From NCBI RefSeq assembly GCF_033096465.1, contig NZ_AP028156.1, forward strand, positions 1,508,501-1,572,500: a stretch of DNA of 64,000 bases, written 5' to 3'. Origin of the DNA: Blautia luti (GTDB taxonomy: Bacteria > Bacillota > Clostridia > Lachnospirales > Lachnospiraceae). The notes beneath the pieces were generated by a model, which was not told the DNA's origin, did no database searches, and was given only the letters and a program-made list of their open reading frames with translations. Both the position numbers and the translations under genes were made by a program. Below are positions 3,913-16,480 of the stretch, one piece after another; within the stretch, counting starts at the first letter, position 1, and each line of letters opens with the position of its first letter.

Positions 3913-3944
3913 GATAATATCCGAATTGAATATGTGCAATGGTT

Positions 3945-4120
3945 ATAACGTTAAGGTCGCATTGTAATATTGATGCACAAAAGAGAATCCGGTGTGAATC
4001 CGGAACGATACCGTCACTGTGTATGGGAGCTATATTCAGAAACCACTGGGAAACCGGGAAGGGAATGTAGCGATGAACGAAGTCAGGAGAACTGCCTTAA
4101 TGTGGAATTTCAGGTCTGCG
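3945..4120 (+). ncRNA. Cobalamin (B12) riboswitch 1
   Basis: Contains the conserved core of the cobalamin aptamer: AGAGAATCCGGTGTGAATCC at 3981-4000, then GGAACG, CCGTCACTGT and, about 75 bases on, the GTCAGGAGAACTGCC segment at 4081-4095. Spacing and order match the family. A U-run terminator follows at 4204, so B12 binding is expected to stop transcription before the chelatase gene. The outer limits are approximate. Confidence 0.93.
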
Positions 4121-4203
4121 GTTTACAGTACCTATATTCTCATACCGATACATAGCTCTTTTAAAATCACATTCAGGTGATACCGTGTATTATATGGGAA
4201 AAT

Positions 4204-4233
4204 AGCAGTCGCAGAAGATGTGGCTGCTTTTTT
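4204..4233 (+). terminator. Riboswitch expression-platform terminator
   Basis: AGCAGTCGC pairs with GTGGCTGCT (9 bp, two G-U pairs) around a 7-base loop and is followed by TTTTTT. It lies between the aptamer and the first gene, as expected for transcription-attenuating cobalamin riboswitches. Confidence 0.85.
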
Positions 4234-4276
4234 GCATACATTAGTCCGGAAATATAGATTAAAAGAGGAAAAAGAA

Positions 4277-5680
4277 ATGAAAAGAAAATCCATGTTAGCT
4301 TTATTACTGGCAGTGTCCATGACCTGTTCCATGACAGCAGCAACAGGTGCAGTAGCTTACGCTTCTGATGATACAGCTACAGAGGAATCAGCAGACGATG
4401 CTGATACAACCGATGATGCAGCTGCAGAAGATACAGATGCAGAAGATACAGCAGATGACGCTGACGCAGCAGACACAGAAGAAGCTTCTGATGATGACCA
4501 GAAAGCAGCAGACGAAGTAGCAGCCCTGATCGACAAGATCTATGTTCAGGAAAGAAATGATACAACTGACGAGGACTGCAAGGCTGCAAAAGAAGCATGG
4601 GATAAACTGACAGATGCTCAGAAGGAACTGGTTGAAGGTGAAGAAGCAAGCCCTGAATATTTTGGACGTGATACAGGTGATGCTTCCAAAGATGATCCAC
4701 GTAATCAGGATGAGATCGGTGAGAACGAACTTCTTGTAGTAAGCTTCGGTACATCCTTCAATGACAGCCGTGCAGAGGATATCAAAGGAATCGAAGACAA
4801 ACTTGCAGAAGCATTTCCGGATTGGTCTGTAAGACGTGCATTTACAGCACAGATCATCATTAATCATGTAGAAGCAAGAGATGATGAAGTAATCGATAAT
4901 ATGCAGCAGGCACTTGACCGTGCAGTAGATAACGGTGTCAAGAACCTGGTTGTACAGCCTACACATCTGATGCATGGTGCTGAATATGATGAGATGGTAG
5001 ATGCTGTTAACGGATACAAAGATAAATTTGAATCTATAGCAATCGCAGAGCCGATGCTTGGTGAAGTTGGCGATGACGCTACTGTTATCAACGATGACAA
5101 GAAAGCAGTTGCACAGGCAATTACAGATACTGCATGCAAGGAAGCTGGATTCGATGATATGAAAGCAGCAGCAGATGCTGGTACAGCATTTGTATTCATG
5201 GGACATGGTACATCTCATACAGCTAACGTAACATATGATCAGATGCAGACACAGATGGAAGACCTTGGACTTACAAACGCTTTCATTGGTACTGTAGAAG
5301 GTAAGCCGGAAGATACAGCCTGCGAAGAGGTTATCGCGAAAGTAAAAGATGCAGGATTCAAGAATGTAATCCTTCGTCCTCTGATGGTTGTTGCCGGTGA
5401 CCACGCTAACAACGATATGGCAGGCGATGATGATGATTCCTGGAAGAGCCAGTTCGAAGCATCTGGAGCATTTGACAGTGTTGAATGCCAGATCGAAGGA
5501 CTTGGAAGAATCGAAGCAGTAGAAGATCTCTATGTAGAACATACACAGGCAGCTATCGATTCCATTGGAACATCTGATGAAGAGACAACAGACGATGCAG
5601 AGGCAGAATCTACAGATGATGCTGCAGCTGATGATACTGCAACAGATGATGCTGCAGAAGAAACAACAGACGCTGAATAA
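4277..5680 (+). CDS. Secreted CbiK-type cobaltochelatase-like protein
   Basis: Class II tetrapyrrole chelatases of the CbiK type insert Co2+ into sirohydrochlorin; a periplasmic form is known in Desulfovibrio. This protein has a signal peptide (residues 1 to about 30, ending near AYA) and an acidic Ala/Asp/Glu/Thr stretch. A CbiK domain spans about 150-430 with ELLVVSFGTS at its start, then an acidic tail. Candidate metal or catalytic histidines are retained: H230 and H233 in PTHLMHG, H310 and H314 in MGHGTSH. I chose ATG 4277 because it follows AGAGGAAAAAGAA and opens the signal peptide. No lipobox or sortase signal is evident. It is the first gene of a B12-riboswitch unit, so export outside the membrane is notable. 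Confidence 0.85.
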   Translation: MKRKSMLALLLAVSMTCSMTAATGAVAYASDDTATEESADDADTTDDAAAEDTDAEDTADDADAADTEEASDDDQKAADEVAALIDKIYVQERNDTTDEDCKAAKEAWDKLTDAQKELVEGEEASPEYFGRDTGDASKDDPRNQDEIGENELLVVSFGTSFNDSRAEDIKGIEDKLAEAFPDWSVRRAFTAQIIINHVEARDDEVIDNMQQALDRAVDNGVKNLVVQPTHLMHGAEYDEMVDAVNGYKDKFESIAIAEPMLGEVGDDATVINDDKKAVAQAITDTACKEAGFDDMKAAADAGTAFVFMGHGTSHTANVTYDQMQTQMEDLGLTNAFIGTVEGKPEDTACEEVIAKVKDAGFKNVILRPLMVVAGDHANNDMAGDDDDSWKSQFEASGAFDSVECQIEGLGRIEAVEDLYVEHTQAAIDSIGTSDEETTDDAEAESTDDAAADDTATDDAAEETTDAE

Positions 5681-5705
5681 TTTTTCAGTTAATCAGAATT
5701 TCAGA

Positions 5706-5737
5706 CTGCCCGGATACTTTTATAAGTCTCCGGGCAG
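5706..5737 (+). promoter_or_regulatory. Intercistronic hairpin
   Basis: CTGCCCGGA and TCCGGGCAG form a 9-bp stem around 14 bases between the chelatase gene and the next gene. Only a weak ATATATTTT follows, so it is more likely a partial terminator or RNA-stability hairpin than a full stop. Confidence 0.5.
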
Positions 5738-5767
5738 ATATATTTTCAGAAAAAAGGAGAATCTATT

Positions 5768-6721
5768 ATGAAAAAACGTTCCGTTGCCATGATGATGTCA
5801 ATGCTTGCACTGTCTGCAGCGCTTGTAAGTACAACTCCTGTTATGGCGAAAACAGATGACACAGAGGAAACAACGACAGAGGAGACCACAGAAGAAGCTG
5901 AGGATGGAGAAGCAAAATCAGAAGATGCAGCGAAATCCCAGACTCTCGAAGATGGCGTCTATACAGCTGAGTTTGATACAGACAGCAGTATGTTCCATGT
6001 AAACGAAGCTATGGATGGTAAAGGAACCCTGACTGTAAAGGATGGAAAAATGACAATCCATGTATCACTGGCATCCAAAAAAATTGTAAATCTTTTTGCA
6101 GGAACTGCTGAAGATGCACAGAAAGAGGGCGCAGAATTATTGGAACCAACTTCTGACAAAGTGACATACAGCGATGGGATGTCTGAAGAGGTATATGGCT
6201 TTGATATTCCGGTACCTGCCATTGATGAGGAATTTCAGGTAGCACTGATCGGAACAAAGGGCAAATGGTATGATCATAAAGTAAGCGTTAAGAATCCTGT
6301 GAAGGAAGAAGACACAGAGGTTTCCGATGATGCAGAGAAAGATACAGAAAAAACAGAAGGCAAAAAAATCGCAGATCTTGGGGTAGAGGACGGAAGTTAT
6401 ACTGCAGAAGTAACACTTACAGGTGGAACAGGCAGAGCAACTGTAGACTCTCCGGCAGCTATTGAGATCAAAGGAGATGAAGCTACTGCAACCATCGTAT
6501 GGAGCAGCCCATATTATGACTATATGCTGGTCAATGATGAGAAGTATTTACCTGTAAATAAAGACGGCAATTCCACATTTGAAATTCCGATTGCAGAGTT
6601 CGATACAGAGATGGAAGTAACAGCAGATACTACAGCTATGAGTCAGCCTCATGCAATTGACTATACCTTAAACTTTGATTCTTCCACTCTGAAGGAAGCA
6701 GAGAAGAAAGATGCGAAATAA
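5768..6721 (+). CDS. Secreted two-domain NEAT-like binding protein
   Basis: 317 residues with a signal peptide (1-27), a Thr/Glu-rich acidic linker and two beta-rich domains like the NEAT / iron-transport-associated family. Domain A (about 58-175) starts DGVYTAEF and ends WYDHKVSV, comparable to the YDHxYxV strand of haem-binding NEAT domains but with Val at the second Tyr position. Domain B (about 200-300) starts DGSYTAEV, has a SSPYYDYMLV strand and ends MSQPHAIDYTLNF. NEAT domains are known for haem; here the B12 riboswitch upstream points to a corrinoid or related ligand (inference). No LPXTG or transmembrane anchor is visible. Confidence 0.8.
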   Translation: MKKRSVAMMMSMLALSAALVSTTPVMAKTDDTEETTTEETTEEAEDGEAKSEDAAKSQTLEDGVYTAEFDTDSSMFHVNEAMDGKGTLTVKDGKMTIHVSLASKKIVNLFAGTAEDAQKEGAELLEPTSDKVTYSDGMSEEVYGFDIPVPAIDEEFQVALIGTKGKWYDHKVSVKNPVKEEDTEVSDDAEKDTEKTEGKKIADLGVEDGSYTAEVTLTGGTGRATVDSPAAIEIKGDEATATIVWSSPYYDYMLVNDEKYLPVNKDGNSTFEIPIAEFDTEMEVTADTTAMSQPHAIDYTLNFDSSTLKEAEKKDAK

Positions 6722-6735
6722 TAAAGCAGTATAAT

Positions 6736-6770
6736 AAAAACAACCTGCCGGTTTTCCGGCAGGTTGTTTT
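6736..6770. terminator. Bidirectional terminator between convergent genes
   Basis: AAACAACCTGCCGG and CCGGCAGGTTGTTT form a perfect stem with a TTTT loop; A-run before and T-run after make it work on both strands. It separates the rightward NEAT gene from the leftward Big_2 protein gene. Confidence 0.93.
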
Positions 6771-6782
6771 AGGTTATACTGC

Positions 6783-9281
6783 TTATTTTACTTTGATGGT
6801 AATGGTTGCAGTTTTCTTGGAACCGTCAGTAGCTTTGGCTGTGATTTTTACAGTGCCTTTTTTACCTTTGACAGCTGTTACTTTACCCTTGGAATTAACA
6901 GTGGCAATCTTTGTATTGCTGGATGTCCAGGTAAGTTTGGTGTTTGCTTTTCCGTTCTGAGTGGAAACTTTAGCTTTTAATGTTGTGCTCTTGCCGGCTT
7001 TGATGGTAGTAGTTCCGGAAAGTTTGATGCTCTTTACAGAACCCTTCATGCAGGTAAGAGTTACTTTTCCGTACTTCTTGCTTCCGTCTTTGGCAGTAGC
7101 AGTGATAGTTACAGTTTTGCCTCCTGCGTTCTTTTTGAAGGTTACAAGACCCTTGGAGTCAACAGTAGCATATTTGGTATTGCTGGACTTCCATGTTACA
7201 GCCTTGTTGGTAGCCTTGGAAGGAGTTACAGTGGCTTTCAGCTGTACTTTCTTGCCTGCTGCTACATTGCGGGAAGGAGTAGCTGAAACAGCAACTTTTG
7301 TTACTTTTACAACTGCTTTCTTAACAGTAACGGTACATGTGGCTTCTACATTGCCAGCCTTTGCAGTGATTACTGCTGTACCTTCTTTAACAGCTGTTAC
7401 AGTACCATTTTCGGATACTTTGGCAACTTTTGCGTTGCTGGAAGACCATTCTACAGCATCAGTGGTATCTGATGGTGCAACGGTTGCTTTCAGTGTAAAG
7501 GATTTACCTGGTTTAAGATTTTTCTTAACTGTATTCAGAGTGATCTCTGTAGCAGGAACCTTAACAGTAACAGTACATTCGGCTTTCACATTGCCGGCAG
7601 TAGCAGTGATCACAGCTGTACCTTCTTTGATACCTGTTACAGTACCATCTTCGGATACTGTAGCTACAGTTTCGTCACTGGAAGACCATGTTACGGCATC
7701 AGTGGTATCAGCAGGAGTAACAGTAGCTGTCAATTTAAATGTTGTGCCTGCATCCAGTGTCTGGCTGTCTGTGTCCAGAGTGATCTCTGTAGCAGGAACC
7801 GATACTGGTGTGACGGTAAGAGTGCTGTTTGTTTTACTGATATTGAAGATACGTTCATACCAGGAGTCATTTCTTACAGAGTGGAAAGAAATGACAACAT
7901 CTTTTTCAAGGTTATCAGATTTGAATCCATCACCGTCCCCGGAGCCTTCTCTTACTACAAGATCTGCCTTGGTATCAGTGATAGGGGTTGTAGTATCAGC
8001 CTTTGCTGCATCTTCAGCGGAACCGATGAAAACTTTATCAAAGCTGGTACTGCCCATGGTCAGATGAAGCACTTCTTCATATCCGTTGGAGTTTGGTCCA
8101 CCAATGGTTTCCAGGGTAGCAGCATTCAGCCTAAACATTTTAACACTGTTTGATACTGTCAGCTCTCTGGTATAATCATAATCGCCGGTAACCAGAGTCT
8201 TGGCTTCTGTATCAATGACTGCCTGACGAGGATAGAAAGCTCTTTCCAGAGTTGATTCACCGTTCTCAAATTTGGTGAGATATTTATTGGAAATAGCTAC
8301 CAGAGGAAGGTAGGTTTCACCATCTGAAACAGGAATGGTAAATGTCCATACACCATTAACTTCTTCACCTTTGATCCAGTTCTCCTGATTGTTTCCGTTG
8401 GCAACGGCTTCTTCATAAGTTCCCTTGTACAGATAATGGTAACCCTTTCCGCTTAAAGTGATGGTCAGAGTTGTACCTGTTTCATCTTTTCTGTAAAGTG
8501 CAGAAGTAACTTTGAACATTCCTGTGTTGTTGGTAGGTGTCAGCTGGGCTTTAATAACAGTGGCCGGAACTACATGAATATCAGAAGCTACAGCGTCGGG
8601 TTCTGTGGTATCTGCCATAGAAGTGGTATCAAACTGAAGTGCATAGATCTTTCTGTCCCATTGTTTCGGTGGCTTTTTCCACGGGTCAGTCAGATTCTTC
8701 TCACTGCTGTATGCCACATAGAGTGTATCAGTAAGAGATTTCACTGGAACTGTATACCAGAGTTCTTTGGTGCCGTCGTCCTTGGTGATGGTTGTAGCCT
8801 GATACCAGTCGACTTCATGATTATATACTGCCTCGCGGCTGGTCTCCTCATTGTCATCTGCGAAAGCGATGTAATCTCTTACATCCGAAGTGCTCTGCAT
8901 ACGAACCAGATAAGTTCCATCATCCTGCTGGGTAACAACTACGTTTTTAAAAGCATAGATACCAGTGGTTTTGCCACCTACGGTAACATTGATGGAATGA
9001 GTGCGGGATTCTGCATCAGCCTGGTCAGAAACATTTTCTTCAGCGGTGTATTCTACCTCACCTGCGCTGAATACGTCTGTATCCGTAGTGGCTGAATCAA
9101 AATCTTCTGAAGCAGAAGCCTCTGTTTCGGCAGAAGTTTCCTCTTCCGGTGTATCTGTAAATTCTGCGCTTGCTGTAAAGTCCGGATTCTCCGCAAAAGC
9201 CGGAACTGCAGAAGCAATTGGTGTAGCTGCGACTGATGCGCTGAGCAGCAGTGCAAGCAGGATTTTTCTTCTTTGCTTCAT
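6783..9281 (-). CDS. Large secreted protein: NEAT-like domains plus four Big_2 Ig-like domains
   Basis: 832 residues. A signal peptide (1-30, ending VPAFA) is followed by an acidic Ser/Thr stretch, then three domains resembling the A-type NEAT-like domain of the neighbours (about 90-225, 235-365, 385-500). The second has ITLSGKGYHYLYKG and the third VFIGSAEDAAKAD; compare VNLFAGTAEDAQKEG in the 5768 gene. Residues 505-832 are four Big_2 (bacterial Ig-like) repeats with the usual VTWSSSDETVATVSEDG pattern, probably a stalk or wall-binding part. There is no LPXTG motif. The gene converges on the riboswitch unit and has its own promoter region; I see no riboswitch on its strand. Its domain kinship ties it to the same system. 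Confidence 0.8.
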   Translation of the reverse strand: MKQRRKILLALLLSASVAATPIASAVPAFAENPDFTASAEFTDTPEEETSAETEASASEDFDSATTDTDVFSAGEVEYTAEENVSDQADAESRTHSINVTVGGKTTGIYAFKNVVVTQQDDGTYLVRMQSTSDVRDYIAFADDNEETSREAVYNHEVDWYQATTITKDDGTKELWYTVPVKSLTDTLYVAYSSEKNLTDPWKKPPKQWDRKIYALQFDTTSMADTTEPDAVASDIHVVPATVIKAQLTPTNNTGMFKVTSALYRKDETGTTLTITLSGKGYHYLYKGTYEEAVANGNNQENWIKGEEVNGVWTFTIPVSDGETYLPLVAISNKYLTKFENGESTLERAFYPRQAVIDTEAKTLVTGDYDYTRELTVSNSVKMFRLNAATLETIGGPNSNGYEEVLHLTMGSTSFDKVFIGSAEDAAKADTTTPITDTKADLVVREGSGDGDGFKSDNLEKDVVISFHSVRNDSWYERIFNISKTNSTLTVTPVSVPATEITLDTDSQTLDAGTTFKLTATVTPADTTDAVTWSSSDETVATVSEDGTVTGIKEGTAVITATAGNVKAECTVTVKVPATEITLNTVKKNLKPGKSFTLKATVAPSDTTDAVEWSSSNAKVAKVSENGTVTAVKEGTAVITAKAGNVEATCTVTVKKAVVKVTKVAVSATPSRNVAAGKKVQLKATVTPSKATNKAVTWKSSNTKYATVDSKGLVTFKKNAGGKTVTITATAKDGSKKYGKVTLTCMKGSVKSIKLSGTTTIKAGKSTTLKAKVSTQNGKANTKLTWTSSNTKIATVNSKGKVTAVKGKKGTVKITAKATDGSKKTATITIKVK

Positions 9282-9375
9282 ATATATTCTCCTTGCCTAT
9301 TGATATATTCAGACACGTTTCCGCATGTGTCTGTGGATGGGACTGTTCCGCAGAAATTCATACAATCCAATTCTC

Positions 9376-9404
9376 ATGATAGCACTAAAATTGTTAAAAA
9401 ACAA
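9376..9404 (-). promoter_or_regulatory. Possible promoter of the leftward NEAT/Big_2 gene
   Basis: On the minus strand TTGTTT and TATCAT are 17 bases apart, about 95 bases upstream of the ATG at 9281. The -10 is good and the -35 weak. The roughly 90-base leader holds a 7-bp hairpin (CAGACAC / GTGTCTG, near 9310-9333). Confidence 0.35.
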
Positions 9405-9477
9405 CAAAATATAAGAAAATAATAGTATATATGCTGTATACTGGTAACTGTTCACACACCACTATCCCGCGAGGCGT

Positions 9478-9497
9478 TTTGGCATGAATATGCCAAA
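9478..9497. promoter_or_regulatory. Inverted repeat, possible operator
   Basis: TTTGGCAT-GAAT-ATGCCAAA is a perfect 8-bp dyad with a 4-base spacer in the divergent intergenic region, about 65-85 bases upstream of the second riboswitch promoter and upstream of the leftward gene. A regulator site is possible; no regulator gene lies nearby. Confidence 0.4.
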
Positions 9498-9560
9498 TAT
9501 ATGTGGATCATGAAAACCATTCTGCACTATGTTTATTGTGAAGAGATTATAGTGGAATGC

Positions 9561-9589
9561 TTGCACAGTACAGTGATATTTGCTATAAT
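9561..9589 (+). promoter_or_regulatory. Promoter of the second B12-riboswitch unit
   Basis: TTGCAC at 9561-9566 and a perfect TATAAT at 9584-9589, 17 bases apart and ending 15 bases upstream of the riboswitch. Confidence 0.8.
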
Positions 9590-9604
9590 GTAAAGAAATA
9601 TAGG

Positions 9605-9790
9605 AACTTCAGTGCCAGTATTTCTGGGCAAAAGGGAATCAGGTGTAAGTCCTGAACGATCCGGTCACTGTAAGCATAAGAGATGACCATAACAGCCATT
9701 GCATAAGATGTGAGAAGGCATGGTCAGGCAGTTAATTTGTAAGTCAGGAAACCTGCTGAAGGATCAGTGAATCGCTTCCGATGAAAGCAG
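9605..9790 (+). ncRNA. Cobalamin (B12) riboswitch 2
   Basis: Aptamer core is clear: GCAAAAGGGAATCAGGTGTA at 9629-9648, then GTCCTGAACGATCCGGTCACTG and, after a longer variable region, AAGTCAGGAAACCTGCTGA near 9738-9756. It differs in sequence from riboswitch 1 but has the same layout. It precedes the transporter unit and is followed by its own terminator. The limits are approximate. Confidence 0.93.
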
Positions 9791-9850
9791 AAATTCACAA
9801 AAACGAAACATCCGGCCGTCAGGAAAGAGATGTTTTATTTGTGCGAATAA

Positions 9851-9883
9851 AGTCTACTCATCTAAAAGGGAGTAGGCTTTTTT
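9851..9883 (+). terminator. Terminator of riboswitch 2 expression platform
   Basis: AGTCTACTC pairs with GAGTAGGCT (9 bp, one G-U) around a 10-base loop, followed by a run of six T. A second possible stem (AAACATC / GATGTTT) lies just upstream and could be the alternative fold. Confidence 0.85.
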
Positions 9884-9955
9884 GTGAGAAAGTATACTTT
9901 TGAGAAAGTACAGTCCTATATTGTAATCTTAATTATAAAAAAGGAGAGAAAAAGT

Positions 9956-12900
9956 ATGCAGGCGAAAAAATTTCTTGCCACTCTGCTCGCAGTGACAATG
10001 ACCGCAGCGCCCACAGTTCCGTATCCAGTATCCGCGGCAGAAACCGAGGTGCACGGAGAAAATGACAGACAGGTACAGGAAGAAGAACAAAGTACAGAGG
10101 AAACTACACAGACAGAAAGCACAGAAGATACAGAACAGGAGATACAGCTGAATGAAGAATTCCTGCAGATCCTGTCAAAAACGGCAGTCTGGGATGGAGA
10201 TTCTATTCTGATCGATGTTGTATCAGCAAACACAGAATACAATAAACTTTATATCGGCAGCCGTACAGATGAGGAAAAGGATCCGGTGATCGAAGGCGTG
10301 CAGGATGAAGAAGGAAATTATCATTACCGTTTCTACATTGATCCTGCAGATCTGGGAAAAAAGGCAGCCTATGTTCCATGCAGCACAGACACCGGCGAAT
10401 GGTATGATGCAGAAGATCTTTATCTGCAGCTTCCTGAAGAGGCAGAGCAGGAAACAGGGGATGATGTAGGCGATGATATAGAGAATACAGCGGACAACGA
10501 CGCGCAGGATGCAGAGGACACAGCAGACACAGAAGATACTTCCTCAGATGATGAAGCAGACAGCAGTACCGTAGATGATGAAAACGGAACACTTTCCCCA
10601 TCACACGGTGATTCCCAGGAGGATTCCATGTGGAAGATCGATGGTCTGGAAGAAGACAGTGATGAGGCAGATGAAGATTTTTACAGGATTGACGGCCTGG
10701 AGGAAGACTCTGAAGATGCAGAAGAAACTCAGAATACAGAAGAATCTGAAGATCCAGCAGGACCTCTGGTATCAGCAGCTTTCCAGGCGATGACAGATGG
10801 AACCTATCAGGCAGATGATTTCTCCTTTACAGGAGGAACAGGAAAGACGAAGATCACCTGCGAGAATATTATCGTACGGGATGGAATGCTTTATGCAACC
10901 ATTAAATTCAGCAGCACCAAATTTATCCGTCTGATCGTAGGCGGTGTAGAATATCAGTCGACCAGCAATGAAGGCGGATCTTACTTCGAGATTCCTGTGA
11001 AGGTAAATACGGATATGGATATCACTGGCACCACTATTGCCATGGAAGAACCCCATGATATCACTTATACCATACATATTACCAAGGAAGGTTTTGTAAA
11101 TCCTTCCATTACACCGATGCCGGGTCCAACAGCTACCCCGGTACCTGTAAAAACGCCAACTCCAACGCCCAAGCCAACAGCGACTCCTACCCCGAAGCCT
11201 ACTCAGACGCCGTCCACTACTGTACCGAAAGACGGAACTTATACAGGATCTGTAGAGCATATATCCGGTACGGCCACTATGTTTAAGATCATTGACTGTA
11301 AGATCAAAGTCAAAAAGGGAAAGATCACAGCTACGATCACATTAAGCGGCACAGGCTATGACAAGCTGTTTTTGGGAACAAAGAAAGCAGCCCTGAAAGC
11401 AAGTGACAGTAAACTGATCCCATATAAAGTGAATAAAAATGGCCAGTATACCTATGAAGTACCGCTGTCAGGTTTGAATAAAGACATTAAATTGGCAGCA
11501 CGTTCCCACCGTTATTATGAAGCCGGTGAGAAAGATAAGATGTGGTATGATCATACTCTGAAATTTACGGCAGATACCGGAAATTCAGGAAGTGCAACCC
11601 CTACCCCGACTCCAACCCGGACTCCAGCTAAGACACCGACGCCAAGTCCGACTCCAACTCCGTCTTCAGGCGGTGAAAGCGGAACAGGTGGTGGAAGCAA
11701 TTCCGGAGGCGGAGGCAGCACTGGCGGTAATACCTCAGGTGGAAACAATAATTATTCCTCGAAGACAGACGGCCAGACCAGCCAGGTAGATTCTTCAGCA
11801 GGAGGATTAAAGGACGGCGAATACGGTTCCGGAGATTTCTCTTTCTCATGGGAAGGTGGAACAGGAACTCATGGTCTGAATATTACCTGTGACAAGATCA
11901 GTGTAGAAAGCGGACAGGCATGGGCATATGTTACATTCAGCAGCAGTAAATGGATTTATCTGAAGGCAAGCGGAAATCAGTATGATCCGGTAGAACAGGG
12001 AAGTGATTACACAACCTTCAAGATCCCTGTACAGTTAAATGCCAACAATAAAGTAGTAGGCTGCACCACAGCCATGTCCAAACCATATGAGATCGAATAT
12101 ACTCTCTATTTCGGTATGGATATTCCGGACAGCAGCTCAGGCAGCGGCAGTACTTCTTCTGTCAGTGCAAAATCAGCAGCTGGCACAGACAGTTCCAAGA
12201 AAGTAGAAAAAGGGGAAGAAGCCGAAACAGATGCAGGTACTGTATACATGGATGAGAATGCACCGAAGATCACAGGTCTGGAATACCAGAGTTCTCTGAA
12301 ACTGGAGCATTCTAAATTGTTTAAACTTCATTATTATAATAATGATATGACGGTCCTGGAAATTACTGTGAAAGAGAATGCAGACAAGAAAGCAGGTACA
12401 GACAGCACAGCGGATACTGCAGCAGAGACAGAAACTCAGACAGAGACAGCAGCGGACACTGTGAAAACTTCCAGTGGTTCCGGTTCTGAAGAGGGAGAGG
12501 AAGGAAGCTCTGCCACAGAACAGGATTATGCGAAACTGTATAAGAATGATACAATCCAGTATCTCCTGGTACCAGAGGACAAAAAGGATCAGATCCCTGC
12601 AGGAATCGACAAGTCCATTATCGTAGTCCAGCTTCCGGTGGATAAATCCTATATAGCATCCGACATAGCACTGGAAATGATCGATAAGATCAGTGCAGAT
12701 AAAAATGTAGCAGCTGTTTCTGCGGCCAAAGATGACTGCAAAGTAGATAATATCAAGAAATCACTGGAAAAGGGAGAAATCATTTCTGCCGGAACTTATG
12801 ATAAAGTGGATCTGAAGTCTCTGCTGAAAGCAAAGTGCAATCTGGCAGTGATCCCGTCCGATATTTTAAAGGAGGAGAAAACTGATCAGACTTCAGCAGA

Positions 12901-13099
12901 TTCTGATGAGACAGCTATGACAGAGCTGGCAGGTAAATTTGCGATCCTTAAGATCCCGGTGATCATTGACCGCTCAAAAGATGAAGAAGACACCCTTGCG
13001 AAATATGAATGGAGCAAAGTATACGGCGCACTTTTCGGATGCGAAAAAGAAGCAGCCAAGCTCTATGAATCCGCAGTAAAAGCACATGACAAAGAATAA
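9956..13099 (+). CDS. Multi-NEAT-like surface protein fused to half of a substrate-binding protein
   Basis: 1047 residues from ATG 9956, chosen for its AAGGAGAG site and signal peptide (1 to about 26). Order of parts: A-type NEAT-like domain (about 65-158), acidic linker, B-type (about 279-378, ending YTIHI), Pro/Thr linker, A-type (about 424-538, ending WYDHTLKF), Pro/Thr and Gly/Ser linker, B-type (about 618-721, ending YTLYF). The C-terminal domain (about 769-1047) starts APKITGLEYQSS and resembles the first half of the BtuF-like protein encoded next (APKIEGLEFQSE). It ends DRSKDEEDTLAKYEWSKVYG, matching the region before the linking helix, so it is one lobe only. A cell-surface role that passes ligand to the next protein is inferred. 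No LPXTG motif is seen. Confidence 0.82.
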   Translation: MQAKKFLATLLAVTMTAAPTVPYPVSAAETEVHGENDRQVQEEEQSTEETTQTESTEDTEQEIQLNEEFLQILSKTAVWDGDSILIDVVSANTEYNKLYIGSRTDEEKDPVIEGVQDEEGNYHYRFYIDPADLGKKAAYVPCSTDTGEWYDAEDLYLQLPEEAEQETGDDVGDDIENTADNDAQDAEDTADTEDTSSDDEADSSTVDDENGTLSPSHGDSQEDSMWKIDGLEEDSDEADEDFYRIDGLEEDSEDAEETQNTEESEDPAGPLVSAAFQAMTDGTYQADDFSFTGGTGKTKITCENIIVRDGMLYATIKFSSTKFIRLIVGGVEYQSTSNEGGSYFEIPVKVNTDMDITGTTIAMEEPHDITYTIHITKEGFVNPSITPMPGPTATPVPVKTPTPTPKPTATPTPKPTQTPSTTVPKDGTYTGSVEHISGTATMFKIIDCKIKVKKGKITATITLSGTGYDKLFLGTKKAALKASDSKLIPYKVNKNGQYTYEVPLSGLNKDIKLAARSHRYYEAGEKDKMWYDHTLKFTADTGNSGSATPTPTPTRTPAKTPTPSPTPTPSSGGESGTGGGSNSGGGGSTGGNTSGGNNNYSSKTDGQTSQVDSSAGGLKDGEYGSGDFSFSWEGGTGTHGLNITCDKISVESGQAWAYVTFSSSKWIYLKASGNQYDPVEQGSDYTTFKIPVQLNANNKVVGCTTAMSKPYEIEYTLYFGMDIPDSSSGSGSTSSVSAKSAAGTDSSKKVEKGEEAETDAGTVYMDENAPKITGLEYQSSLKLEHSKLFKLHYYNNDMTVLEITVKENADKKAGTDSTADTAAETETQTETAADTVKTSSGSGSEEGEEGSSATEQDYAKLYKNDTIQYLLVPEDKKDQIPAGIDKSIIVVQLPVDKSYIASDIALEMIDKISADKNVAAVSAAKDDCKVDNIKKSLEKGEIISAGTYDKVDLKSLLKAKCNLAVIPSDILKEEKTDQTSADSDETAMTELAGKFAILKIPVIIDRSKDEEDTLAKYEWSKVYGALFGCEKEAAKLYESAVKAHDKE

Positions 13100-13114
13100 T
13101 ACAAGGAGAAAATC

Positions 13115-14278
13115 ATGAGAGAAAAAAAATTACATATGCTGTTTATCCCTCTTCTGGCAGCTTGTATGTTTCTGGCAGCAATTTTCGGCTATACATACAG
13201 TGTAAAAGCAGAAGATGAATCCTCTGCTCCGAAGATCGAGGGACTGGAATTTCAGTCAGAAATGGAAAATCAGTTTGCAGAATGTTTCCATATTTATTAT
13301 TACAATGATGATTATACATTGATCGATGTACCGGGCAGCGGACAGTTCCTTCTGGTTCCGGAAGGAAAGACTGCTCCGGAGGGATTGGATGAAAACATTG
13401 TAGTCCTGCAGAAACCGCTGGACAAGATTTACCTGGCAGCTACTTCCTCCATGGCGCTGTTTTCCGCTCTGGATGCCCTGGATCACATTAAATTTTCCTC
13501 TCTTCAGGAATCCGGCTGGTATGTAGACACAGCCAAACAGGCGATGGAAAACGGAGATATCGTATTCGCAGGAAAGTACAGTGAACCGGATTATGAACTT
13601 CTGGTAAATTCTGAATGTAACCTGGCGATTGAATCAACCATGATCCTCCACACTCCAAAGGTGCAGGATATGATCGAACAGATGGGAATCCCTGTATTTA
13701 CAGACCGTTCCAGTTATGAAACACATCCTCTCGGAAGAACGGAATGGATCAAGGTTTATGCAGAGATGGTAGATAAGAGAGAGGAAGCGCAGAAGTTCTT
13801 TGACGAACAGGCGAAGATCATTACACAGCTGAAGGATTTCAAGAATACAGAGAAAACAGTTGCCTTTTTCTATATGAGTTCTGACGGTTCTGTAGTAGTG
13901 AGAAAACCAGATGATTATGTACCGAAGATGATCGAGATCGCAGGTGGACGTTATGTTCCGACCAAGGTAAGTTCGGATGAAGAACTGAAACGTTCCTCCA
14001 TTCCTATGACAATGGAAGAATTCTACACCCAGGCTATTGATGCAGATTATCTGGTGTATAACGGAACTATCGATGACCCTATCAACAGTGTAGATGAGCT
14101 GCTGCAGAAGAGCGAACTTTTCGCAGACTTCAAGGCTGTCAAAGAAGGAAATGTATGGTGTGCGGGCAAATATCTCTATCAGGCTACAGATATTGTAGGA
14201 AATATGATCACAGACCTGCATCTTATGCTGACTGGCGGAGATGAAAGCCAGATGACCTTTATGACAAAAATCGACTAA
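13115..14278 (+). CDS. btuF: BtuF/FecB-type substrate-binding protein of the B12-family ABC importer
   Basis: 387 residues, class III periplasmic binding protein fold: N-lobe (LIDVPGSGQFLLVPEG..., VFAGKYSEPDYELLVNSECNLAI), linking helix near EWIKVYAEMVDKREEAQKFF, and C-lobe ending with VWCAGKYLYQATDIVGNMITDLHLML. The N-terminus is hydrophobic with a possible lipobox LAAC (Cys17), but the hydrophobic stretch runs on past it, so lipoprotein versus signal-anchor is open. It is 15 bases after the NEAT fusion gene and 14 before the permease gene. B12 riboswitch control favours a corrinoid ligand; haem or siderophore relatives share the fold. Confidence 0.85.
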   Translation: MREKKLHMLFIPLLAACMFLAAIFGYTYSVKAEDESSAPKIEGLEFQSEMENQFAECFHIYYYNDDYTLIDVPGSGQFLLVPEGKTAPEGLDENIVVLQKPLDKIYLAATSSMALFSALDALDHIKFSSLQESGWYVDTAKQAMENGDIVFAGKYSEPDYELLVNSECNLAIESTMILHTPKVQDMIEQMGIPVFTDRSSYETHPLGRTEWIKVYAEMVDKREEAQKFFDEQAKIITQLKDFKNTEKTVAFFYMSSDGSVVVRKPDDYVPKMIEIAGGRYVPTKVSSDEELKRSSIPMTMEEFYTQAIDADYLVYNGTIDDPINSVDELLQKSELFADFKAVKEGNVWCAGKYLYQATDIVGNMITDLHLMLTGGDESQMTFMTKID

Positions 14279-14292
14279 GTACAGGAGAAATT

Positions 14293-15357
14293 ATGACGAA
14301 ACAACAAACAGGTGGAAGCACCGGAACCTTCCATATGGAGAATTTCCGGAGGCGTTCACGTTATGCAGCAGTTTTTGCGGCACTGGCAGCAGCACTTTTT
14401 GCCATCCTGGTGCTGAACATTAATACAGGTACTACGAATATTCCGGTTTCACGTATTCTGAGGATTATTTTCCTGCGGGATGGTGCACAGACAGAATATA
14501 ATATTATCTGGAAGATCCGAATGCCACGTCTGCTCATGGCAGCGATCCTGGGAGGGGCACTTTCCCTCTCAGGATTTCTGTTGCAGACATTTTTCGAAAA
14601 TCCTATTGCAGGTCCTTATCTGCTGGGTATTTCATCTGGTGCGAAGATGGTAGTAGCCCTGGCGATGATCTACTTCCTGGAGAAATTTAACAAAGTTTCT
14701 TCCTATACACTGGTAATCGCTGCTTTTATCGGATCCCTTATCGCTACAGGATTTATTCTCCTGGTATCCAGACGGATCAAACATATGGCCACTCTGCTGA
14801 TCGCAGGTACGATGATCGGATATATCTGTTCTGCGATCACGGATTTTGTGATCACTTTCGCGGAGGATTCAGATATTATCAATCTTCACGGATGGTCACA
14901 GGGAAGTTTCTCCGGTATGAGCTGGAGCAATGTAAGAGTTGCATCCGTGATCATCGCTGTAGCAGTGATTTTGACCTTTTTGCTTTCCAAACCTATCGGA
15001 GCATATCAGCTGGGAGAAGCCTATGCACAGAGCATGGGTGTAAATATCAAAGTATTCCGTGTGACACTGATCCTGCTGTCCAGTATTCTTTCTGCGACTG
15101 TCACAGCATTTGCAGGACCGATCTCCTTCGTGGGAATCGCAGTGCCTCACCTGGTAAAGCAGGCGCTGAACACTTCCAGGCCGCTGGTAGTCATACCTGG
15201 AACTTTCCTTGGGGGAGCAGTATTCTGTATGCTCAGTGACCTGATCGCACGTACCGCTTTCGCACCGCTGGAACTGAATATCAGTACAGTGACTTCCATC
15301 TTCGGTGCACCGGTGGTGATCGCGATGATGCTGAAACGTCAGAAAGGAAAACAGTGA
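14293..15357 (+). CDS. btuC: FecCD/BtuC-type ABC transporter permease
   Basis: Membrane subunit of the importer, 354 residues with about nine to ten hydrophobic segments after a 25-residue cytoplasmic N-terminus. Family features are visible: RMPRLLMAAILGGALSLSG, NPIAGPYLLGISSGA, and GPISFVGIAVPHLVK, the coupling region that meets the ATPase. The start ATG 14293 follows ACAGGAGAAATT. The stop is one base from the ATPase start, so the two are translationally coupled. Confidence 0.92.
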   Translation: MTKQQTGGSTGTFHMENFRRRSRYAAVFAALAAALFAILVLNINTGTTNIPVSRILRIIFLRDGAQTEYNIIWKIRMPRLLMAAILGGALSLSGFLLQTFFENPIAGPYLLGISSGAKMVVALAMIYFLEKFNKVSSYTLVIAAFIGSLIATGFILLVSRRIKHMATLLIAGTMIGYICSAITDFVITFAEDSDIINLHGWSQGSFSGMSWSNVRVASVIIAVAVILTFLLSKPIGAYQLGEAYAQSMGVNIKVFRVTLILLSSILSATVTAFAGPISFVGIAVPHLVKQALNTSRPLVVIPGTFLGGAVFCMLSDLIARTAFAPLELNISTVTSIFGAPVVIAMMLKRQKGKQ

Positions 15358-15358
15358 T

Positions 15359-16480
15359 ATGGCAGAACAATATATAAATATGGACAATCTGGCGGTAGGC
15401 TATAATGGCAAAGCACTGATCCATGATATCTGCATCGGCATTGAAAAAGGAGAGATCGTAACCCTGATCGGCCCAAACGGCGCAGGGAAATCCACCATCC
15501 TGAAAAGTATCACCCGCCAGTTAAAGATCATTTCCGGAAATGTGACTATTGCAGAAGAAAACCTGACCAAACTGTCTTTCCGTGATCTTTCTACGAAAAT
15601 GGCGGTGGTTCTTACCGAACGTATGAAACCGGAGCTTATGACCTGCCATGATATTGTAGCTACCGGACGTTATCCCTATACCGGAAAGCTGGGAATCTTA
15701 AGCAGGGAAGACGAGCAGAAAGTAGATGAAGCCATGGAAGCTGTCCATGCCCAGGAATTGGGAGACAGGGATTTCAATGCCATCAGTGACGGACAGCGAC
15801 AGAGAGTTCTTCTGGCCCGTGCCATCTGCCAGGAACCGGAGATCATTATTCTGGATGAGCCGACCTCATTCCTGGATGTACGTTATAAACTGGAACTGCT
15901 TTCCATACTCAGGGATATGGCGAAGAGAAAAGGCATCACTGTGATCATGTCCCTTCATGAGATCGATCTGGCAGAGAAAGTGGCAGACAAGATTATTTGC
16001 GTGAAGGGAGATCGCATTGCACATTATGGAAAGCCGGAGACCATTTTCAAAGAAGACGTCATCCGTGATCTCTACGGGATCGACAACGGATATTTCGACC
16101 CTGTATTCGGAAGCCTGGAACTTCCCAGACCGGAAGGCAAGCCACGGGTTCTGGTGATATCCTCTGGTGGAACAGGAATTCCGGTCTACAGGGAACTTCA
16201 GAAAAAGAACATTCCCTTCGCAGCAGGGATCCTTTATACCAATGACATCGACTATCAGCTTGCACGGCTTCTGGCAGTACGCACGGTAACAGAGAAACCT
16301 TTCGAACCGGTGAGCAGCCAGGCTTTGGCAGAGGTGATGGAGCTGGCAGATTCCTGTGAAAAGGTCATTAACGCCGGAGTGACCATCGGAACAGGCAATA
16401 AAAAGCTGGAAGAACTTCTGGCAAAGGCATCCAGTCTGGGAAAACTGGAAGCGTACAGAACGGATCCAGATGAAAAATAA
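15359..16480 (+). CDS. btuD: BtuD-type ABC ATPase with C-terminal extension
   Basis: ATPase subunit. Residues 1 to about 255 hold the ABC domain: Walker A GPNGAGKST, signature ISDGQRQR (SDGQ instead of SGGQ), Walker B IIILDEPTS and the switch His in SLHEID. About 115 further residues follow, starting PRVLVISSGGTG and ending near LEAYRTDPDEK; this reads like an alpha/beta nucleotide-binding-like domain that plain BtuD lacks. Its role is unknown. It is the last gene of the unit; a weak ATACAA / TTGTAT hairpin follows at about 16482. Confidence 0.9.
   Translation: MAEQYINMDNLAVGYNGKALIHDICIGIEKGEIVTLIGPNGAGKSTILKSITRQLKIISGNVTIAEENLTKLSFRDLSTKMAVVLTERMKPELMTCHDIVATGRYPYTGKLGILSREDEQKVDEAMEAVHAQELGDRDFNAISDGQRQRVLLARAICQEPEIIILDEPTSFLDVRYKLELLSILRDMAKRKGITVIMSLHEIDLAEKVADKIICVKGDRIAHYGKPETIFKEDVIRDLYGIDNGYFDPVFGSLELPRPEGKPRVLVISSGGTGIPVYRELQKKNIPFAAGILYTNDIDYQLARLLAVRTVTEKPFEPVSSQALAEVMELADSCEKVINAGVTIGTGNKKLEELLAKASSLGKLEAYRTDPDEK

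Follow-up and report, generated by a model that had tools for sequence, protein, structure and literature searches.

Two adjacent gene units, each headed by a cobalamin riboswitch, lie in a 64,000-nucleotide stretch of the Blautia luti genome (the window; NZ_AP028156.1, positions 1,508,501 to 1,572,500 of the forward strand). Together they encode an exported CbiK-like protein, secreted proteins with NEAT-fold domains of two types (A and B) and an importer composed of substrate-binding protein (SBP), permease and ATPase. In a reading of moderate confidence, sirohydrochlorin would be caught outside the cell, loaded with cobalt by the exported CbiK and relayed from A to B to the SBP and the importer; the set is a candidate uptake system for tetrapyrrole precursor salvagers. 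Riboswitches, export signals, domain fold, gene order, fusions and co-occurrence are the observations from which we infer ligand, catalysis and transfer. Features, in window coordinates, are as follows.

3937-4113, plus strand: cobalamin riboswitch 1 (RF00174; 89.2 bits, gathering score 31.5).
4204-4233, plus strand: terminator-like hairpin and T-run (attenuator) behind riboswitch 1, from the sequence and a terminator scan, which gave 4204-4228.
4277-5680, plus strand: predicted exported CbiK-like cobaltochelatase (Pfam CbiK, 1e-74), unit 1.
5768-6721, plus strand: secreted A-B NEAT-fold protein, unit 1 (A at about 5942-6295, B at about 6377-6694).
6783-9281, minus strand: secreted protein with A-type and Big_2 domains (A at residues 251-333 and 373-478; weak A at 119-196).
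9593-9774, plus strand: cobalamin riboswitch 2 (RF00174; 98.9 bits, gathering score 31.5).
9852-9883, plus strand: a second terminator-like hairpin with T-run, following riboswitch 2 (sequence read by eye).
9956-13099, plus strand: surface protein of type II with domains A (very weak, at 10193-10411), B (10793-11077), A (11228-11560) and B (11807-12112), unit 2.
13115-14278, plus strand: full-length SBP (Peripla_BP_2, 1.9e-39), unit 2.
14293-15357, plus strand: importer permease of the FecCD family (FecCD, 6.5e-78; closest solved structures HmuU, then BtuC), unit 2.
15359-16480, plus strand: importer ATPase with C-terminal extension (ABC_tran, Pfam), unit 2.

Among 200 genomes of the family, 77 encode relatives of the A-B protein (E up to 0.001), each listed genome carrying a separate genus code; weak matches are counted in the 77, G117 for instance (E 2.7e-4; without CbiD, HemC, CbiK or riboswitch). 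When merged at 5 kb, the 144 matches form 97 loci. In 72 of these a same-strand cobalamin riboswitch lies at most 5 kb upstream, and loci of this kind are present in 66 of the 77 genomes; the rough chance expectation, presuming a mean genome of 2.85 Mb, is 0.0015 per locus (0.15%). Of the 25 loci that lack one at this distance, some start near a contig end (G011, G053, G063, G066, G074). A second set comprised the best 80 of 576 confirmed matches, on contigs of named organisms or metagenome-assembled genomes, many from Blautia or other Lachnospiraceae. Nearby genes among these best 80 were CbiK (78), SBP (79), permease (76) and ATPase (71), and all 11 loci picked from them for an Rfam scan had a riboswitch.

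Gene order was compared in 80 fetched loci of the family, 78 of them with an A/B call (L104 and L124 lack one, probably owing to simple choice of open reading frames, ORFs). The usual order is riboswitch-CbiK-A-B-SBP-permease-ATPase; CbiK is present in 60 loci, SBP and permease in 62. Fusions are CbiK-A in 20 (three being CbiK-A-B), A-B in 48 and B-SBP as the only SBP in 19; each junction from CbiK through to SBP is thus seen fused in at least one locus. The importer ATPase is fused to CobQ in L071, L099 and L113 and to CbiD in L051. A leaderless CbiK fused to CbiD was also seen among the loci with unusual fusions (L051, L071, L099, L112, L113).

The presence of A/B domains goes with that of CbiD, a protein of corrin-ring building. 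CbiD was found in 75 of 77 genomes with these domains, against 27 of the 80 tested out of 123 genomes without A/B domains (Fisher p 5e-19); among good genomes alone the counts are 63/64 and 21/67. HemC is present in 36 of the 77 and absent from 41. SUMT (uroporphyrinogen methyltransferase, TIGR01469 over cut-off) is present in 39, namely all 36 with HemC plus G074, G122 and G184. Both are absent from 38 genomes, which by gene content should be unable to make sirohydrochlorin; CbiD is kept in 37 of the 38, and 28 of these 37 reach 90% completeness with contamination no higher than 5%.

The family genomes contain 98 CbiK matches, 69 of them near A/B loci (5 kb). The 40 genomes with CbiD and without HemC have an A/B-linked CbiK in 36 cases, another CbiK in one and none in three; in the 35 with both CbiD and HemC, a linked CbiK occurs in 30 and another CbiK in 22. 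A non-linked CbiK is thus found in 22/35 against 1/40 (p 5e-9), its absence meaning no PF06180 match at E 0.001. Uptake of sirohydrochlorin, with cobalt insertion outside, is proposed because in most ring-building genomes predicted to lack sirohydrochlorin synthesis the only CbiK found is an exported one, joined to a tetrapyrrole-type relay and importer under B12 control. CbiD is encoded downstream of the A/B genes, on their strand and no more than 20 kb away, in 24 of the 40 HemC-negative and 8 of the 35 HemC-positive genomes. In G187 (HemC-negative, 75% complete) one strand reads riboswitch-CbiK-AB-SBP-permease-ATPase/CobQ and continues CobT-unnamed gene-CobS-CobC-CbiB-CobD-CbiC-CbiD-CbiF-CbiG-CbiH-CbiJ/E/T-CbiA, several of these names being best matches under the NCBIfam cut-off. 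On a quick tree of exported CbiK (a single linked CbiK per genome, 59 in all, with L105_13 and L112_7 left out as cytosolic) the HemC state shifts at least 16 times.

The window CbiK consists of a signal-peptide-like start, an acidic region and a CbiK domain at about 4712-5560. The domain passes the Pfam CbiK cut-off (251.6 bits against 26.2) and lies below that of the NCBIfam equivalog NF047852 (202.1 against 400); the export of CbiK in unit 1, claimed in the initial annotation, agrees with the Pfam match and the leader. Closest solved structures are 9b86 (FetB), 1qgo (CbiK) and 2xvx (chelatase). H329 and H395 (numbering of the 486-residue ORF) align with the solved relatives and are taken by us to be the two catalytic histidines. 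The motifs with these histidines are retained in linked CbiKs (GHG in 62/62, GDH in 60/62). Because of its family and the intact histidines, the exported CbiK is predicted to insert cobalt into sirohydrochlorin. A signal-peptide-like start was scored in 59 of 62 A/B-linked CbiKs and in none of 18 others by a simple rule of our own, which also demands more than 30 residues ahead of the CbiK domain; the 18 are those fetched out of 29 lying more than 5 kb from any A/B locus. Of the three linked CbiKs that fail the rule, L105_13 and L112_7 are leaderless copies nearby and that of L109 probably has a miscalled start.

The A and B domains, described as NEAT-like in the initial annotation, have the NEAT fold on structural comparison. 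By sequence, the A-B protein at 5768-6721 matches Pfam NEAT (PF05031) at 2.8e-7 and 31.4 bits, slightly under the 32.8-bit cut-off, and at E up to 1 PF05031 matches 11 of 24 A domains and 18 of 33 B domains. Many close homologues carry precomputed PF05031 annotation. A search of the PDB by sequence with the B-domain profile recovered no NEAT structure. In 9884-13099 a Pfam search gave no NEAT match and a whole-genome NEAT search one weak match (17.5 bits, E 0.012); our own hidden Markov models (HMMs), trained on the fetched loci of the family itself, gave B at 8e-32 and 2e-28 and A at 3.5e-22. The minus-strand protein at 6783-9281 has two A-type domains by the same HMMs (1.2e-10, 8.4e-9) and Big_2 in four stretches (Pfam). 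It had been placed convergently between the units; it is convergent with unit 1 and divergent from unit 2.

Haem is bound by NEAT domains through a Tyr-x3-Tyr motif in the last strand. By their sequences neither A nor B retains it. No A domain has a Tyr four residues before the Tyr among 82 motif-bearing domains (of 90). B domains have His-x3-Tyr in 72 of 79 motif-bearing domains (of 82), with Tyr at that place in two. The His-x3-Tyr spacing fits replacement of the haem-ligating Tyr by His; the end ranges of five structural alignments suggest that the B His/Tyr pair sits two positions later in the strand.

SBP, FecCD permease and ATPase occur together in unit 2, so all parts of the importer named BtuFCD in the initial annotation are present. 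Its B12-specific label fared less well. The BtuC and corrinoid-ATPase models among the matches listed score below cut-off (208.1/334, 149.3/461 and 207/537 bits), the last being PRK09536, which aligns over residues 5-355 of the ATPase, and the nearest solved permease is HmuU. The SBP matches IsdE weakly (2.5e-7, 30.2 bits, cut-off 298.65) and has no solved relative at E 0.01.

Unit 2 starts with a 1071-residue ORF if counted from GTG 9884 and with a shorter one from ATG 9956. The C-terminal part of its product (about 12239-13096), overlooked in the initial annotation, resembles the N-terminal half of the adjacent SBP (1e-26). Thirteen of the fetched loci, the window's included, share this layout, termed type II: the A/B protein has an SBP-like half at its end, and a full SBP is encoded separately next to it. 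The SBP-like half stops by SBP residue 234 in all 13, beside a full SBP, and a local accident was therefore rejected as its explanation. Nine of the 13 ORFs terminate at most 25 residues past the match; four (L062, L072, L080, L084) continue for 83-165 residues without a detectable match, possibly a very diverged remainder of the SBP. The 19 B-SBP fusions serving as sole SBP extend to SBP residue 359-387 of 387.

The two riboswitches had been proposed as heads of the two units, and the Rfam scores agree. Each unit has its hairpin and T-run directly 5' of the first gene; ATG 4277 and ATG 9956 are therefore more likely, on sequence grounds, to be the starts of the exported CbiK and the type II protein than GTG 4220 and GTG 9884. 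The hairpin of riboswitch 2 is absent from the terminator-scan list and was recognised by eye only. Elsewhere in the window, 41363-41410 matches the gut-2 small RNA family (58.5 bits, cut-off 39.8).

The genome to which the window belongs is a single contig of 3.74 Mb with six cobalamin riboswitches, three of which lead units with A/B genes. The third strong one (C1:3659857-3660048), also missing from the initial annotation, precedes a 1301-residue ORF (L015:10882-14787, minus strand) whose product combines B, A-like, carboxypeptidase-regulatory and Big_2 domains with a region of about 150 residues without an established family. A DUF4430/transcobalamin-like domain in this protein was considered because of a resemblance and dropped: Pfam gave none at E 0.1, and five homologues carry other precomputed families. 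A weak riboswitch precedes another set of SBP, permease and ATPase, again of these families. Two further riboswitches (C1:204310-204503, L016; 2986325-2986517, L017) stand ahead of other ABC sets, one an Opp/Nik-type importer with SBP_bac_5, the other (minus strand) a sugar-type SBP (Peripla_BP_4) with ABC genes and, by eye, methylthioribose-salvage-like genes. The genome also encodes HemC, SUMT, CbiD and a second, leaderless CbiK. With its early genes HemC and SUMT this genome is not that of a tetrapyrrole precursor salvager; because of these and the other CbiK, the system would be supplementary here, adding salvage to synthesis. A small B-domain protein (172 residues) of the same genome lies divergently beside CbiL (cobI_cbiL, 4.6e-61) and an exporter-like ABC-2 type ATPase/permease pair (L019:4598-7656). 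This CbiL-permease arrangement is seen in L019, L073, L095, L124 and L128, CbiL with permease recurring in 5 of 96 loci searched and the permease in 8 of 96; the cassette might serve release, or a second uptake route, for the substrate or product of CbiL.

The proposed sequence of events is as follows. Low B12 would open the riboswitches, as the RNA family and attenuator hairpins suggest. Exported CbiK would then bind sirohydrochlorin and add cobalt, giving cobalt-sirohydrochlorin, which A would receive from CbiK, B from A and the SBP from B; these hand-over steps are proposed because of the usual gene order and the fusion of each neighbouring pair. The importer would bring cobalt-sirohydrochlorin to the CbiL...CbiC pathway in the cytosol. 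For type II units (e.g. 9593-16480), the A/B protein, longer there and with an SBP-like half at its end, could act as a collector beside the full SBP. Chances are about even for the wider proposition that many gut clostridia split corrin biosynthesis across the envelope, the first committed step (cobalt insertion) taking place outside and cobalt-sirohydrochlorin passing through His-containing NEAT-fold domains to an importer heading the cbi operon.

The initial annotation had proposed a relay for capture of corrinoids. This is supported in part: a B12-controlled NEAT-fold set with an importer is indeed present; given the CbiD and HemC pattern, the main ligand is probably something other than finished corrinoids. 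If A/B and SBP bound cobamides or cobinamide for a B12 importer, with exported CbiK a non-catalytic corrinoid binder, the riboswitches would be the usual control of B12 importers, the permease and ATPase families would fit in that they include BtuC and BtuD, and downstream CobQ, CobT, CobS and CbiB could serve salvage too. Pure salvage ought not to follow ring-building, yet CbiD does so (75/77 against 27/80), and neither the export of a CbiK with both histidines kept nor the linked CbiK being the only one found in 36 of 40 HemC-negative, CbiD-positive genomes would be explained; a finished-corrinoid relay is therefore judged unlikely. Rather improbable is the scavenging of cobalt itself, carried by CbiK and A/B, free or as a tetrapyrrole chelate acting as mere carrier, to an importer feeding cytosolic insertion. 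Cobalt uptake is often under B12 riboswitches, CbiK enzymes bind cobalt, and the system is often upstream of cbi genes; against this, no non-linked CbiK to accept the cobalt was found in 39 of the 40 genomes, and to our knowledge NEAT folds and Peripla_BP_2/FecCD importers handle tetrapyrroles, siderophores and corrinoids, not bare metal.

Acquisition of haem or porphyrin by an Isd-like relay brought under B12 control is the least probable reading, with very little likelihood left to it. It would account for the NEAT fold, the weak IsdE match and the nearness of CbiK to haem-binding FetB and of the permease to HmuU. A haem system under B12 control is weakened by the frequency of the riboswitch (66 of 77 genomes) and the clustering with cbi/cob genes; the lack of Tyr-x3-Tyr in A and B also speaks against it.

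Several points weigh against the proposed import of cobalt-sirohydrochlorin. The closest solved relatives are haem-related, FetB (9b86) for exported CbiK and HmuU for the permease; because of these, and with the SBP lacking a solved relative at E 0.01, the transporter sequence cannot separate B12 from haem as ligand. The order varies, B preceding CbiK in L066 and A preceding CbiK in L126. CbiK and A occur without this family's importer in the fetched stretch of L075, L079, L083, L109, L116 and L119, three of these six genomes (G102, G118, G191) having a type II unit elsewhere, like the window. HemC and SUMT are present in 36 of 77 genomes, the window's own included; the system thus extends beyond precursor auxotrophs. 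CbiK is absent from HemC-negative, CbiD-positive G040, G142 and G094 and from type II units; neither case is well explained, and both would need a pre-loaded or other ligand. What they import may be a later corrinoid, or a precursor already carrying cobalt and released by other organisms. On the CbiK tree the association of HemC loss with absence of another CbiK is one-way in every differing pair, with only 5 well-supported independent pairs, a median p of 0.5 and no power. The search for early tetrapyrrole genes covered HemC and SUMT in the 77 genomes with A/B domains.

The gene set offers a concrete, deletable candidate for precursor uptake: it is riboswitch-controlled, often heads the cbi cluster in genomes that keep ring-building but lack early tetrapyrrole steps, and contains the only CbiK found in most of them, an exported one. 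It could explain how bacteria unable to start the pathway finish B12. If true, NEAT relays would extend beyond haem and the cobalt-inserting step would lie outside the cell; early B12 precursors would be a public good, possibly traded in the gut, and 'precorrin-2 salvagers' would be cobalt-sirohydrochlorin importers. The portions of the open-licence PubMed Central literature covered, a scope outside which subscription papers and most preprints fall, contained nothing linking NEAT domains with corrinoid uptake or exported CbiK.

Isd/NEAT haem relays (IsdA/B/C/H, IsdX1/X2, Shp, Hbp2) share the NEAT fold and several NEAT domains per secreted protein. They also have an SBP with a FecCD-type importer and the same logic of hand-over. 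The present set differs from them in cobalamin riboswitch control, in an exported CbiK often fused to NEAT domains, in lacking Tyr-x3-Tyr, in direct NEAT-SBP fusions and NEAT-SBP-half proteins and, in many genomes, in heading a cluster of corrin-synthesis genes. FetB, which we take to be IhtB of the Porphyromonas gingivalis Iht operon, presumably with an importer nearby, is likewise an exported CbiK homologue and the closest solved structure (9b86). We know of no NEAT domains in that system, and its host is Gram-negative, unlike these clostridia. The relevant passages on IhtB describe haem/iron acquisition (PMC13227078), and those of Shelton et al. place P. gingivalis among bacteria without the steps up to precorrin-2 (PMC6461909). 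The Desulfovibrio chelatase 2xvx is a further CbiK relative of solved structure. It is presumably the periplasmic CbiKP, and no NEAT domains or fusions are known to us in its system. One B12 element governs cbiK-cbiL and btuCDF in Desulfovibrio, according to the pertinent section of Rodionov et al. 2004 (PMC545781).

Tetrapyrrole precursor salvagers are characterised, in the corresponding sections of Shelton et al. (PMC6461909), by the presence of the corrin ring and later steps and the absence of early tetrapyrrole steps; they are primarily Firmicutes and are stated either to import a precursor or to have a novel pathway. The precorrin-2 salvager class is given as 0.6% in the relevant part of a review (PMC8123684). 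Salvagers are a metabolic class for which those sections of PMC6461909 name no uptake system; the present gene set is a candidate uptake system for that class.

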